This document shows, piece by piece, positions 36,151-45,063 of a stretch of DNA of 64,000 nt. The translations under genes and the position numbers were made by a program. The stretch covers positions 1,436,001 to 1,500,000 of the forward strand of contig NZ_CP019334.1 in assembly GCF_002163675.1 (NCBI RefSeq), written 5' to 3'. Position 1 is the stretch's first letter, and every line of letters begins with the position of its first letter. Below the pieces are notes generated by a model. That model worked only from the letters and a program-made list of their open reading frames with translations, was not told the origin of the DNA and ran no database searches. The stretch is from Polaribacter sp. SA4-12. GTDB lineage: Bacteria > Bacteroidota > Bacteroidia > Flavobacteriales > Flavobacteriaceae.

Positions 36151-36193
36151 CAAAGGAAGTATACCTAGAAAGAAAACAAAATGATTAAGGTCA
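36151..36193 (-). promoter_or_regulatory. dyad-type promoter, site 1
   Basis: The dyad TGATTAAGGTCA (36182-36193) lies 23 nt from CAAAGGAA (36151-36158), which on the minus strand reads TTCCTTTG, one change from TAnnTTTG. It points at the small lipoprotein genes. The rest of the 281-bp gap holds only a possible weaker -7 element, TATCTTTA at 36274-36281, for the CheB-CheR gene. Confidence 0.6.
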
Positions 36194-41549: not shown

Positions 41550-41592
41550 CAAAGGTTTCAATTATTAATACAAAACAAAATGATGTAGGTCA
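41550..41592 (-). promoter_or_regulatory. dyad-type promoter, site 2
   Basis: The dyad TGATGTAGGTCA (41581-41592) is 23 nt from CAAAGGTT (41550-41557), which on the minus strand reads AACCTTTG, one change from TAnnTTTG. It drives the small helical protein gene. Confidence 0.65.
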
Positions 41593-41736: not shown

Positions 41737-42405
41737 ATGAAAACAGATGCAGAAATTAAAGAAGATGTACTAGATGAATTAGCATGGCAACCTAATATCG
41801 ATGAAACTCAAATTGGAGTTATTGTTGAAAACGGAGTAGTAACCCTAAGTGGTGTTGTTAATAATTACGCTAAAAAATTAGCTGCAGAAAAAGCAGTAAA
41901 AAGTGTTGATGGTGTAAAGGCAGTAGCTGAAGACATTAAAGTTATTTACGGAGTAAATTACAAAAAAACAGATAAAGAAATTGCAAAAGCTGTTGTAAAT
42001 GCTTTTGAATGGAATTCTTCTGTTCCTGAAGATGATATTACCATAAAAGTAGAAAACGGTTGGGTTTACCTATCTGGTGAAGTACAATGGATGTATCAAA
42101 AAAATGCTGCAAAAAATACAATTAAAAATTTATTGGGTGTAAAAGGTGTAAGTAATTCTATTAAATTAGAAAACAATATTGAACCTAAAGAAGTAAAAGA
42201 CAGAATTAAAAAAGCTTTTCATAGAATGGCAATGCTAGATTCTAATGCTATTACTCTTGAAACTCATGGCCACACAGTAACATTACGAGGAAAAGTACAT
42301 TCTATTAAAGAAAAAGAAGATGCAGAAACAGCTGCATATAATGCTCCTGGAGTTTACGATGTTAAAAACGAACTTAAAGTACAGTATAGTACAGAATATG
42401 CGTAG
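41737..42405 (+). CDS. triple BON-domain protein
   Basis: The 222-aa protein consists of three BON domains of ~70 residues. Each has the pattern IGVIVENGVVTLSGVVNNYAKK / ITIKVENGWVYLSGEVQWMYQK / ITLETHGHTVTLRGKVHSIKEK followed by a helix and a closing V-x-x-V strand. BON proteins such as OsmY respond to osmotic and stationary-phase stress and bind membranes or lipids. No signal peptide is visible, so this one appears cytosolic. It has the best dyad promoter of the island, and the triplicated RNA units follow it directly. Confidence 0.93.
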   Translation: MKTDAEIKEDVLDELAWQPNIDETQIGVIVENGVVTLSGVVNNYAKKLAAEKAVKSVDGVKAVAEDIKVIYGVNYKKTDKEIAKAVVNAFEWNSSVPEDDITIKVENGWVYLSGEVQWMYQKNAAKNTIKNLLGVKGVSNSIKLENNIEPKEVKDRIKKAFHRMAMLDSNAITLETHGHTVTLRGKVHSIKEKEDAETAAYNAPGVYDVKNELKVQYSTEYA

Positions 42406-42471: not shown

Positions 42472-42574
42472 CATTTTAATAAAAAAACAGTTATAGTGAA
42501 TACTCTCAAAAAAATAATATAACCAAAACTTTATTTGCTGTTTTAATTAAATATTTAAATAAAAAACACTCAAT

Positions 42575-42617
42575 TGATCTAGGTCATTTTAGAACCTGAA
42601 ATACCATTGTATCTTAG
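42575..42617 (+). promoter_or_regulatory. dyad-type promoter, site 4 (RNA copy 1)
   Basis: The dyad TGATCTAGGTCA (42575-42586) is followed after 23 nt by TATCTTAG (42610-42617), one change from TAnnTTTG. The predicted start is near 42621. Confidence 0.68.
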
Positions 42618-42620
42618 CTG

Positions 42621-43034
42621 TATAATTAGTAACAAAAGCGTTCTTTGAAAAAATATAAATATAGATTTTGATGTAGCAATATAGAAAAATCTTAAGGGTG
42701 TCTAAACTCTTTTTAACCATACTTGTTTTTGTGTTAACTTAGAAATAAGTGTATGCATAAATGATGTAATTGGCAAAAAAGAGATACAATACCTTTTAGA
42801 AAGCCAGAACATTCTGGTGTTCTGGTTTTCTTTTAAAATATAATTAAAGTACAGATCTCTATTTACTGTAAAGTGAGTAGGATCGTTGTGAAGGGATTGA
42901 TATAAATTTTTATCAAAGATTCATTTGTTTTAGATTCTAGCAATAGAATGTTTAAACATATTGAATTAATGGTTGAAATGAAATTAATCTCATCATAAGA
43001 AACGGGAAGCCTTGGCTTCTCGTTTCTGTTTTAA
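42621..43034 (+). ncRNA. structured RNA, copy 1
   Basis: This region is inferred to be transcribed from the dyad promoter. Hairpins: ACTTA-GAAA-TAAGT; a terminator-like CCAGAACA/TGTTCTGG stem followed by TTTTCTTTT (42804-42834); a long stem GATC-CTATTTACT / AGTGAGTAG-GATC capped by GTAA (42854-42884); TTGATA/TATCAA (42897-42916); ATTCTA-GCAA-TAGAAT (42934-42949); and the final 13-bp stem GAAACGGGAAGCC / GGCTTCTCGTTTC with a T-run (42999-43034). A shorter ~210-nt RNA could end at the first terminator. No known RNA family is recognised. Confidence 0.7.
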
Positions 43035-43062
43035 TTAAATATTTAAATAAAAAACACTCAAT

Positions 43063-43105
43063 TGACATAGGTCATTTTAGAACCTGAAATACCATTGTAT
43101 CTTAG
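43063..43105 (+). promoter_or_regulatory. dyad-type promoter, site 5 (RNA copy 2)
   Basis: The dyad TGACATAGGTCA (43063-43074) is followed after 23 nt by TATCTTAG (43098-43105). The layout is identical to copy 1. Confidence 0.68.
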
Positions 43106-43108
43106 CTG

Positions 43109-43523
43109 TATAATTAGTAACAAAAGCGTTCTTTGAAAAAAATATAAATATAGATTTTGATGTAGCAATATAGCAAAATCTTAAGGGTATCTAAACTCTT
43201 TTTAACCTTACTTGTTTTTGTGTTAACTTAGAAATAAGTGTATGCATAAATGATGTAATCGGCAAAAAGGTGATACAATACCTTTTAGAAAGCCAGAACA
43301 TTCTGGTGTTCTGGTTTTCTTTTAAAATATAATTAAAGTACAGATCTCTATTTACTGTAAAGTGAGTAGGATCGTTGTGAAGGGATTGATATAAATTTTT
43401 ATCAAAGATTCATTTGTTTTAGATTCTAGCAATAGAATGTTTAAACATATTGAATTAATGGTTGAAATGAAATTAATCTCATCATAAGAAACGGGAAGCC
43501 TTGGCTTCTCGTTTCTGTTTTAA
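43109..43523 (+). ncRNA. structured RNA, copy 2
   Basis: It is nearly identical to copy 1 in all hairpins. The stem AGATTTTG/CAAAATCT (43152-43159 with 43174-43181) is perfect here, while copy 1 has one mismatch at its inner end. The first terminator stem is at 43293-43314 and the final one at 43488-43515. A 16-codon frame starting ATGTTTAAACAT occurs in copies 1 and 2 only. Confidence 0.7.
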
Positions 43524-43551
43524 TTAAATATTTAAATAAAAAACACTCAAT

Positions 43552-43594
43552 TGACATAGGTCATTTTAGAACCTGAAATACCAATGTATCTTAG
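43552..43594 (+). promoter_or_regulatory. dyad-type promoter, site 6 (RNA copy 3)
   Basis: The dyad TGACATAGGTCA (43552-43563) is followed after 23 nt by TATCTTAG (43587-43594). It is conserved although the unit around it has diverged. Confidence 0.68.
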
Positions 43595-43597
43595 CTG

Positions 43598-44008
43598 TAT
43601 AATTAGTAACAAAAGCGTTCTTTGAAAAAGATAAATATAGATTTTGATGTAGTAATATAGCAAAATCTTATAGGTATCTAAACTCTTTTTAACCTTACTT
43701 ATTTTGTAATAACTTAGTAATAAGATTATAGATAAATAATGTAACAGGCAAAAAAGCGATACAATACCTTTTAGAAAACCTGAACATTCTGGTGTTCGGG
43801 TTTTCTTAAAAAAAACAATTAAAGTACTGATCTTTATTTACTGTAAGCTAAGTAAGATCGTTGTGAAGGGATTGACATAATTTTCGTCAAAGATTCATTT
43901 GTTTTAGATTCTAGTAATAGAATGTTTAAACACATTGAATTAATGGTTTAAATGAAATTAATCTCATCATAAGAAACGGGAAGCCTTGGCTTCCCGTTTC
44001 TGTTTTAA
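43598..44008 (+). ncRNA. structured RNA, copy 3 (diverged)
   Basis: The copy has many substitutions but keeps the stems. The first terminator is CCTGAACA/TGTTCGGG (43779-43800). The long stem has a T-A pair where copy 1 has C-G at its base, with one internal mismatch near the loop. The TTGAT/ATCAA stem is now TTGAC/GTCAA. The GCAA loop is GTAA and the GAAA loop is GTAA. The final stem is fully paired (43973-44000), where copies 1 and 2 have one G-U pair. The protease gene starts 30 bp beyond its end. Confidence 0.7.
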
Positions 44009-44037: not shown

Positions 44038-45063
44038 ATGAAAGAAATACTCTTTGTTTTTTATTTTTTTATAACATTTATTGGCACTGCACAAAAATTA
44101 GCAGACTGCTATGAAAATGTCAAATCTTCTGTCGTTGTCATAAATGTTTTAAGTGTTGCTCCCAAAGCCACAAAAAACAACCTAACATTAGTAGCTAAAT
44201 CTTTACAAGGATCTGGTGTTTTAATTTCCGAAAAAGGAGTTATTTGGACAGCTTCTCATATTGTACAAGCTGCAGAATTGGTTAAAGTTGAGTTTTTAAA
44301 TGGAGCTGTTTATGATGCAGAAGTAATATCCAATAATCCTTTAGCTGATATCGCTTTGATAAAAATTAAGGGCGATTTTATTTTAAAAGGTGCAAAAGTA
44401 GCTAAAATTGGAAATTCTGATAAGCTTAGAATAGGCGATGATATTTTTATTCTTGGTGCACCATATGGTCTTAAACAATCCATAACAAAAGGAATATTAA
44501 GTGGAAGACATATTCATAAGGGTTTAAGTGATGATTTTAATAACATCGAATTTCTTCAAACTGATGCAGCTATAAATCATGGTAGTTCAGGAGGACCAAT
44601 GTTTAATATGAAAGGAGAAGTCGTTGGCATAACTAATAGTATGTACACTTTATCAGGTGGATTTAGTGGAATTGGTTTCGCAATATCATCAAATACAGCT
44701 AAAAAGCTAATGATGGAAAAACCTACTATTTGGACAGGTATGAAATTTGTAATCGTTAGTGGAAATATAGCCAAAGCACTTAATGTTCCAAAAGAATCAG
44801 GTTTATTAATTCTTAACTTATCCTCTAAAGGTGTCGCTAATAAAATAGGTCTTCGTTCTGGTACTATTGATGCCACTATTGACGGTACAGACATCGTAAT
44901 TGGAGGGGATATTATATTAGATTTTGCAGGAATCGGTTTTAATACATTTGATTTCCGAAGTAAAATAAAGAAAAAGTTAGAAGAGTATGGTAAAAGAGAT
45001 TTAATTCCAATAACTATTTTAAGAAATGGTAACATACTTTCTCTCGAATTTGAAAGGGAATAG
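44038..45063 (+). CDS. HtrA/DegP-like serine protease with PDZ region
   Basis: A signal peptide (ILFVFYFFITFIGTAQ) directs the 341-aa protein to the periplasm. The trypsin-like domain has His74 in WTASHIV, Asp104 in PLADIALIKI and Ser184 in NHGSSGGPMFN, a complete triad. The last ~100 residues resemble one PDZ domain (SGLLILNLSSKGVANKIGLRSG, LRNGNILSLEFE), shorter and more divergent than in DegP. It should degrade or guard misfolded envelope proteins. No promoter of its own is visible: its ATG lies 30 bp after the third RNA's terminator, so it may depend on read-through. Confidence 0.9.
   Translation: MKEILFVFYFFITFIGTAQKLADCYENVKSSVVVINVLSVAPKATKNNLTLVAKSLQGSGVLISEKGVIWTASHIVQAAELVKVEFLNGAVYDAEVISNNPLADIALIKIKGDFILKGAKVAKIGNSDKLRIGDDIFILGAPYGLKQSITKGILSGRHIHKGLSDDFNNIEFLQTDAAINHGSSGGPMFNMKGEVVGITNSMYTLSGGFSGIGFAISSNTAKKLMMEKPTIWTGMKFVIVSGNIAKALNVPKESGLLILNLSSKGVANKIGLRSGTIDATIDGTDIVIGGDIILDFAGIGFNTFDFRSKIKKKLEEYGKRDLIPITILRNGNILSLEFERE

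Follow-up and report, generated by a model that had tools for sequence, protein, structure and literature searches.

A multi-copy, modular structured RNA gene with a boxA-like leader is predicted at a stress locus of Polaribacter and in other Flavobacteriaceae

In the genome of Polaribacter sp. SA4-12, three tandem units located between a triple-BON protein gene and a trypsin-like protease gene appear to be copies of one gene for a structured RNA. A covariance model, which the earlier sequence-only reading of this DNA had recommended, was built, and homologous units of many genera were found to keep the structure through compensatory change. Comparison supports the reading of the homologous units as a multi-copy structured RNA gene under a dyad like that at the neighbouring stress genes. 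We propose, with a probability of roughly 0.6, that its product is a regulated, antiterminated, modular, trans-acting RNA working by stoichiometry, as a protein sponge or a scaffold. Positions refer to the window, i.e., the whole analysed stretch of 64,000 nucleotides, except where a locus of another numbering (L010 and the like) is named.

The array was delimited by three direct-repeat families (D1–D3), which give three head-to-tail copies in the region 42535–44008 with start spacings of 488 and 489 nt. The three tandem units of ~488 bp between the BON and protease genes that had been described before are thus borne out. The units and their neighbours are as follows.

42535..43034, + strand: unit 1 (promoter plus RNA gene), from direct repeats; profile match 42555–43032, E 5.7e-98
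43023..43523, + strand: unit 2, from direct repeats; profile match 43043–43521, E 4.9e-98
43512..44008, + strand: unit 3, 91–92% identical to units 1 and 2, from direct repeats and BLAST; profile match 43532–44006, E 1.3e-94
41737..42405, + strand: neighbouring triple BON-domain protein (Pfam BON), with a dyad upstream at 41581
44038..45063, + strand: neighbouring trypsin-like protease (Pfam Trypsin_2; ORF), starting 30 nt past unit 3

BLAST within the genome gave 98% identity to unit 2 for unit 1 and 91% for unit 3, in line with the earlier description of two near-identical copies and a diverged third. No further unit of comparable score was detected by BLAST in the 3.99-Mb chromosome, where the next best match is a 32-nt piece of 37 bits; a sequence-only model of the units (R1) added one weak match in the same genome (E 8e-4). 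The BON protein next to the array has its closest relatives in Winogradskyella thalassocola and two uncultured records, at 86%.

Each unit opens with a putative promoter, composed of a dyad of the CRP type (TGA-N6-TCA) and a candidate -7 element.

42575..42586, no strand assigned: dyad TGATCTAGGTCA of unit 1, CRP-type TGA-N6-TCA, centred ~41 nt upstream of the predicted start
43063..43074, no strand assigned: dyad TGACATAGGTCA of unit 2, TGA-N6-TCA pattern
43552..43563, no strand assigned: dyad TGACATAGGTCA of unit 3, TGA-N6-TCA pattern
42610..42617, + strand: putative -7 element TATCTTAG of unit 1, from sequence
43098..43105 and 43587..43594, + strand: putative -7 elements of units 2 and 3, from sequence

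The dyad is present in all 38 full-length units of the collection, and exactly 39 nt past its start lies TTAG in 25 units and TTTG in 13, so that in 38/38 units it stands at a fixed distance from the -7 element, as in a CRP/FNR-type promoter. The Bacteroidota -7 consensus we take to be TAnnTTTG. Given the -7 element at 42610–42617, the unit 1 transcript would start near 42622, which would place the dyad centre near -41, the position of class II activators. The claim that every unit bears the same dyad promoter as the neighbouring stress genes holds for 42575, 43063 and 43552, and for 41581 at the BON gene. A window search allowing two mismatches, for which about four matches are expected by chance, also located dyads at 36182, 45113 and 55319, upstream of a CheB/CheR-PAS gene, a hydrolase gene and another stress-island gene, respectively. 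At locus L010 (10011–10086, - strand) the promoter part alone of the unit profile matches (E 5.7e-5); here a dyad promoter may serve a different gene.

Downstream of the predicted start, each unit carries a boxA-like sequence reminiscent of rRNA leaders.

42640..42650, + strand: boxA-like GTTCTTTGAAA of unit 1, from sequence and comparison with rRNA leaders
43128..43138, + strand: boxA-like GTTCTTTGAAA of unit 2, on the same basis
43617..43627, + strand: boxA-like GTTCTTTGAAA of unit 3, on the same basis

A strict script finds such a sequence in 34 of 38 units, at 58–65 nt from the start of the dyad, and a looser script finds it in all 38. In the same genome, the four rRNA leaders bear GTTCATTGAAAA, and the unit sequence GTTCTTTGAAA equals the rRNA leader sequence GTTCATTGAAA in 10 of 11 letters. 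The joint pattern GTTCWTTGAAAA occurs seven times in the genome, in the four rRNA leaders and the three units and nowhere else, with the qualification that its W was picked after both forms had been seen and that the reversed control pattern likewise gives seven matches. The boxA letters read GTTCATTGA in rRNA and mostly GTTCTTTGA in units. Most units appear to differ from the rRNA leaders of relatives by a steady A-to-T change, since GTTCATTG is kept in 8 of the 12 relatives that had a 16S match among the 14 searched for 16S leaders. A pairing between boxA and the linker before the 3' module was considered and dropped, because 6 of 17 units have a C-A mismatch at one of the paired positions.

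The evidence for a folded RNA is comparative as well as thermodynamic. For unit 2, whose predicted RNA measures 415 nt, the computed folding energy is -124.7 kcal/mol, and shuffled versions average -75.1 (z -10.4; 0/100 shuffles as good); this RNA matches the ~410 nt with many hairpins noted at the outset. In the RNAalifold structures of 17 units, compensatory changes are seen at 21 of the 31 pairs in the 3' part and at 26 of the 36 in the 5' part; these alignments (A1/A2) exclude the irregular locus L075, two near-identical copies of L069 and the partial second piece of L073. The structure derived from the 17 units was then tested on a further alignment (A4), composed of unit 3 and 15 units found by the sequence-only R1, with unit ends taken from profile or model matches. 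A4 excludes the partial loci L144, L148, L150 and L151 as well as two of the copies in L136. One of the 16 rows of A4, unit 3, had contributed to deriving the structure. On A4, 86.7% of 907 cells pair, against 75.2 ± 0.8 when shuffled and at most 51.3% when slid, and changes on both sides occur in 45 of 57 pairs against 23.5. The two long hairpins pair in 94–98% of cells. For the inner hairpins the share is 77–85%, except for the outer part of the first one, with 69%; three of these inner helices reach only 69–79%. For the two long-range helices, one per module, 82.5% of cells pair against 74.6 shuffled and the covariation score is 0.362 against 0.229, in a register chosen by eye on A4 itself and with one of five measures no better than shuffles (73/500 reach it). 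The + strand can be assigned as the RNA because G-U cells outnumber A-C cells by 133 to 28 in the 15 held-out units. GNRA loops cap the four inner hairpins in 50 of 64 cases in A4 (58/68 in A1/A2) and the two long hairpins in 1 of 32 (1/34).

43774..43805, + strand: 14-bp long hairpin in the middle of unit 3; 12 of 14 pairs changed on both sides, 94.2% of cells paired (A4)
43972..44001, + strand: 13-bp hairpin at the end of unit 3, with GTTTT after it; 9 of 13 pairs changed on both sides, 97.6% of cells paired

To judge from its sequence, the end hairpin of unit 3 is likely a terminator. Over 16 units, the 8 nt past the hairpin contain on average 2.75 Ts at the middle position and 4.25 at the end; because fewer Ts follow it, the first closing hairpin may not terminate. 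The two terminator-type stems per unit that had been reported are both present; each looks like the hairpin that closes one of two homologous modules.

A protein product is not apparent. The longest frames in 25 transcripts (15–68 aa) differ in strand, place and length, save among copies within one genome; with no common frame visible by inspection, the coding reading was dropped and the earlier claim of no conserved reading frame stands for these transcripts. Rfam gave no match at gathering score over the window units, and over the window and ten homologous loci the Rfam 15 matches at that score were confined to DUF805, Flavo-1 and one tRNA, none of which lies within an array, which upholds the statement that no family was recognised. 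The window instances are a DUF805 RNA (RF03081, 14328–14396, 72.3 bits) and a Flavo-1 RNA (RF01705, 26696–26789, 64.6 bits). GOLLD, ROOL and OLE, families that have Rfam models, gave no match in the window and the ten loci. The DUF3800-I RNA (RF02969) scores 36.3, 28.9 and 28.9 bits, below its gathering threshold of 44.2 (E 0.0019); its alignment to the units breaks several model pairs, and it is absent among matches up to E 0.3 in five homologous loci. A lax scan returned 34 sub-threshold matches up to E 10 from scattered families; the best, BSnc120 (E 0.0014, 27 bits against a threshold of 114), was rejected, as was a sub-threshold L20-leader match in L203 (30.2 bits, E 0.064). No description of this RNA family turned up in the Rfam scans or in a full-text search of open-licence papers. 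The sequence-only reading had itself named a conserved peptide frame, an Rfam hit and a mobile repeat as findings that would speak against it; all three were sought and none was found.

Each unit is apparently a tandem of two homologous modules of ~180 nt. Each module combines a GNRA hairpin and a long hairpin with a long-range helix that encloses a UAGNAAUA hairpin. A covariance model of the 3' module (R2), of whose alignment the window 3' modules are members, gives the following matches.

42661..42835, + strand: 5' module of unit 1, matched in register by the 3'-module model, 36.3 bits
42853..43032, + strand: 3' module of unit 1, 180.7 bits, member of the model alignment
43151..43324, + strand: 5' module of unit 2, 37.2 bits
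43342..43521, + strand: 3' module of unit 2, 180.7 bits, member of the model alignment
43638..43807, + strand: 5' module of unit 3, 28.7 bits, the weakest, with one opposite-strand match scoring higher (34.0 bits)
43828..44006, + strand: 3' module of unit 3, 180.1 bits, member of the model alignment

In 28 of 35 two-module full-length units, from 15 loci, the whole of R2 aligns with the 5' half without a shift of register; scores lie between 22 and 43 bits, with one of 51.5, and the remaining 7 of 35 have no 5'-module match. Because opposite-strand matches from the palindromic end hairpin reach 40.5 bits and overlap this range, scores alone are insufficient for the weaker 5' modules and would be no proof. 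The case for module homology is built on register, layout and the better scores, and it is strengthened because the order of elements is equal in both halves, long-range helix included.

The number of modules in a row varies across genomes from 1 to 6. Lutibacter locus L027 has six behind one leader (identified by eye), and L030, L033 and L075 have three each. The rows in L203 and L205 comprise three and four modules, respectively, with their first and last modules matched only partially; L202 has one and L206 one clear module. By eye, As rather than Ts mostly follow the inter-module long hairpins of L027, L203 and L205. Half-units composed of a promoter and a 5' module only occur in L141 (5807–6086), L143 (5578–5840) and L073 (6234–6494), where they adjoin a full unit or partial pieces; they are possibly independent one-module RNAs. 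A weak module match between full units in L136 (9167–9275, - strand, 37.2 bits) is perhaps a decayed copy.

Module number also bears on the idea that the transcripts are abundant boxA decoys, titrating NusB/S10 off rRNA operons and slowing ribosome synthesis in stress. The boxA-like sequence near the 5' end of 34/38 units by the strict script, the confinement of the pattern to rRNA leaders and units in this genome, and the many gene copies would all suit such a decoy, which however leaves the conserved downstream structure unexplained. Moreover, because the six modules of Lutibacter L027 share one leader (by eye), it was the modules rather than boxA that multiplied there. We regard the decoy as quite improbable.

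To trace relatives, BLAST against Flavobacteriaceae genomes, as had been suggested, was run with unit 3. It revealed five tandem copies in G063, one copy in G118 together with parts of a further cluster there, which holds four unit copies, and matches in six additional genomes among 299 of the family; one of these, a 36-nt match in G400, was not confirmed by the profile over its locus (L077). Among 43 loci fetched via the BON protein, a profile search placed the RNA in five: Kordia aestuariivivens (L012), Flagellimonas allohymeniacidonis (L041) and three Lutibacter (L027, L030, L033). R1 detected the RNA in 16 of 249 genomes of the family draw, i.e., 16 of 235 genera, at E 1e-4, and in 16 of 166 genomes of the genus at E 0.01, of which six lie beyond 1e-10 and ten are weak (E 6e-5 to 0.0096). 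Among 345 genomes of the class, nothing but the own genome matched R1. R2 detected 21 of 249 family genomes at E 1e-3; its default filters miss the modules of L202 and L206, which score 60.7 and 47.7 bits with filters off. The union of both models places the RNA in 24 of 249 sampled family genomes, own genome included, with eight of these from R2 alone and five of the eight resting on E 2e-4 to 6e-4. Unit copies per genome range from 1 to 7, the highest number being that of G031 in the genus search with R1.

Tandem copies, up to seven per genome, could also be expected of a functionless mobile or satellite repeat. Nothing similar to the units was found in plasmid and phage records, however, and the regulated promoter is retained at fixed spacing, the structure shows compensatory changes, and stress genes of a recurring set are often found close to the copies; we find this explanation hardly credible.

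A candidate regulator emerged from the gene neighbourhood. RR-CRP, in which a response regulator is joined to a cNMP-binding domain and a CRP-type HTH (DNA-binding) domain, adjoins the array in G063 (L069), and near-full-length relatives, 43–64% identical, are present in ten others of the 29 RNA loci. A close class of RR-CRP (E 1e-120 or better, 19 genomes, with the cut placed at a gap seen in the finished table) was found in 12 of 16 R1-positive and 7 of 233 R1-negative genomes (Fisher p 9e-13, descent ignored). Any RR-CRP at E 1e-60 occurs in 23 of 24 genomes positive by R1 or R2 and in 89 of 225 others (p 4e-8, descent ignored). In 12 of the 24, six with the close class and six with a more distant one, it lies within 10 kb of the RNA, where chance would give ~1% per genome for two such genes placed at random in 3.5 Mb. 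The association has exceptions in both directions: 7 of the 19 close-class genomes have no RNA match, and G233, with a weak RNA match, lacks RR-CRP at E 1e-60. The Polaribacter genome encodes a close-class RR-CRP with an adjacent PAS histidine kinase, 330 kb from the units. This RR-CRP gene (chromosome position 1809979; locus L153, 1480–2568 and 3481–3759) stands behind the PAS kinase, near a frame that by eye looks like a second BON-type protein.

The neighbours of the RNA, in the window or in relatives, include BON, dienelactone-hydrolase-like, phosphoribosyltransferase, erythromycin esterase, DUF2267, PfkB, YkuD, DUF302 and ribosome-hibernation (S30AE) proteins. This set resembles low-oxygen or dormancy loci. 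In Burkholderia, the low-oxygen-activated (lxa) locus reportedly brings BON-domain and universal stress proteins together. The lxa locus (PMC6127331) belongs to another phylum, and the word sRNA is absent from that paper. In G389, an S30AE gene adjoins a partial unit (L151, 5933–6247).

The neighbourhood also speaks to a cis-acting role, in which the unit would be a leader or attenuator controlling the protease, or other genes, downstream of it. The window protease begins 30 nt past unit 3 and a number of relatives have a co-directional downstream gene, but the first ORF downstream faces the RNA at 13 or more of the 29 loci (simple ORF caller, ≥80 aa), downstream genes vary between loci, and more Ts follow the end hairpins than the middle ones. 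It is above all the orientation of downstream genes that led us to drop this reading as very unlikely.

Under the trans-acting model we favour, each unit would be a gene for a non-coding RNA of ~400 nt, activated by a sensor kinase and RR-CRP through the TGA-N6-TCA dyad at about -41 alongside the surrounding stress genes. RNA polymerase would pass the boxA-like signal, which would load the Nus antitermination factors of rRNA, so that the long untranslated transcript gets finished. The RNA would then fold into a series of ~180-nt modules that each combine a GNRA-capped hairpin, a long hairpin and a long-range helix around the UAGNAAUA hairpin, and these modules would bind and hold a protein, as a sponge or scaffold, rather than target one mRNA each. 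Action by amount seems most likely because the length of a module row (1 to 6) and the number of units in a genome (1 to 7) both vary, and the GNRA-capped, tertiary-looking folds would suit a protein partner. Structure, module build, promoter layout, boxA-like sequence and RR-CRP association are supported by comparison of sequences; to these we add, by inference, transcription, RR-CRP binding, Nus binding, stoichiometric action and the partner. The sequence-only reading thus held as far as it went: a multi-copy RNA under a stress-type dyad agrees with the compensatory changes and with the lack of a common frame and of an Rfam match, "regulatory" being the inferred part. It had overlooked the boxA-like leader, the two-module build and the link to a response regulator of the CRP type.

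A base-pairing role is possible as well. Here the units would encode a regulatory sRNA in several copies whose loops or linkers pair with stress-response mRNAs, in the manner of sibling sRNAs, which are typically multi-copy, with a promoter each and apparent two-component control. The large size, long-range helices and GNRA-capped inner hairpins nevertheless look like a folded object, not open seed regions, and rows of 1–6 modules would be unusual, so we hold this alternative to be rather unlikely, if worth keeping in view. A bolder extension of the stoichiometric model is a polymer-like RNA: in low-oxygen or energy stress, the rRNA antitermination machinery would make strings of the ~180-nt module, whose number evolution tunes by module and unit duplication, and which would build or hold a ribonucleoprotein body, or sequester a translation or transcription factor, in dormancy. 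We offer it tentatively, as a speculation with the odds against it.

If transcribed as predicted, the units represent a conserved RNA family in an abundant marine bacterial group, with a structure backed by compensatory changes, a likely regulator amenable to deletion and an unusual two-level repeat. If the model is true, boxA antitermination would extend to a stress RNA, and the natural variation in module number would make dose and scaffold models directly testable.

Several known systems share single traits with the units. As in boxA-antiterminated rRNA operons, a boxA-like sequence lies early in a long untranslated transcript, and CRISPR arrays are likewise boxA-antiterminated untranslated transcripts; the unit product, however, is neither rRNA nor crRNA, and Nus binding at the units is putative. 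CsrB/RsmZ are protein-titrating RNAs with repeated binding modules, two-component control and stoichiometric action, as proposed for the units too, but they use short GGA hairpins where the units have ~180-nt modules. LhrC-like sibling sRNAs come in several near-identical copies with their own promoters under a two-component system, whereas the units are much larger and have two-level repeats and a boxA-like leader. GOLLD, ROOL and OLE, described as ornate large structured bacterial RNAs (PMC12286853), resemble the units in being large and highly structured, and the GNRA-type loops of the units suggest tertiary contacts. A mark of that class is assembly into RNA-only homo-oligomers. The units differ in their repeated ~180-nt modules of variable number. 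The STAXI motif, according to its description (PMC2864571), is a structured element in two or three tandem repeats and so shares tandem repetition with the units; as portrayed there, it is mainly a pseudoknot near DNA-handling genes, in contrast to the GNRA hairpins, long hairpin and stress locus of the units. A new RNA family is in itself a known kind of thing; what is new here is the boxA-like leader, the two-level repeat and the variable number of modules.
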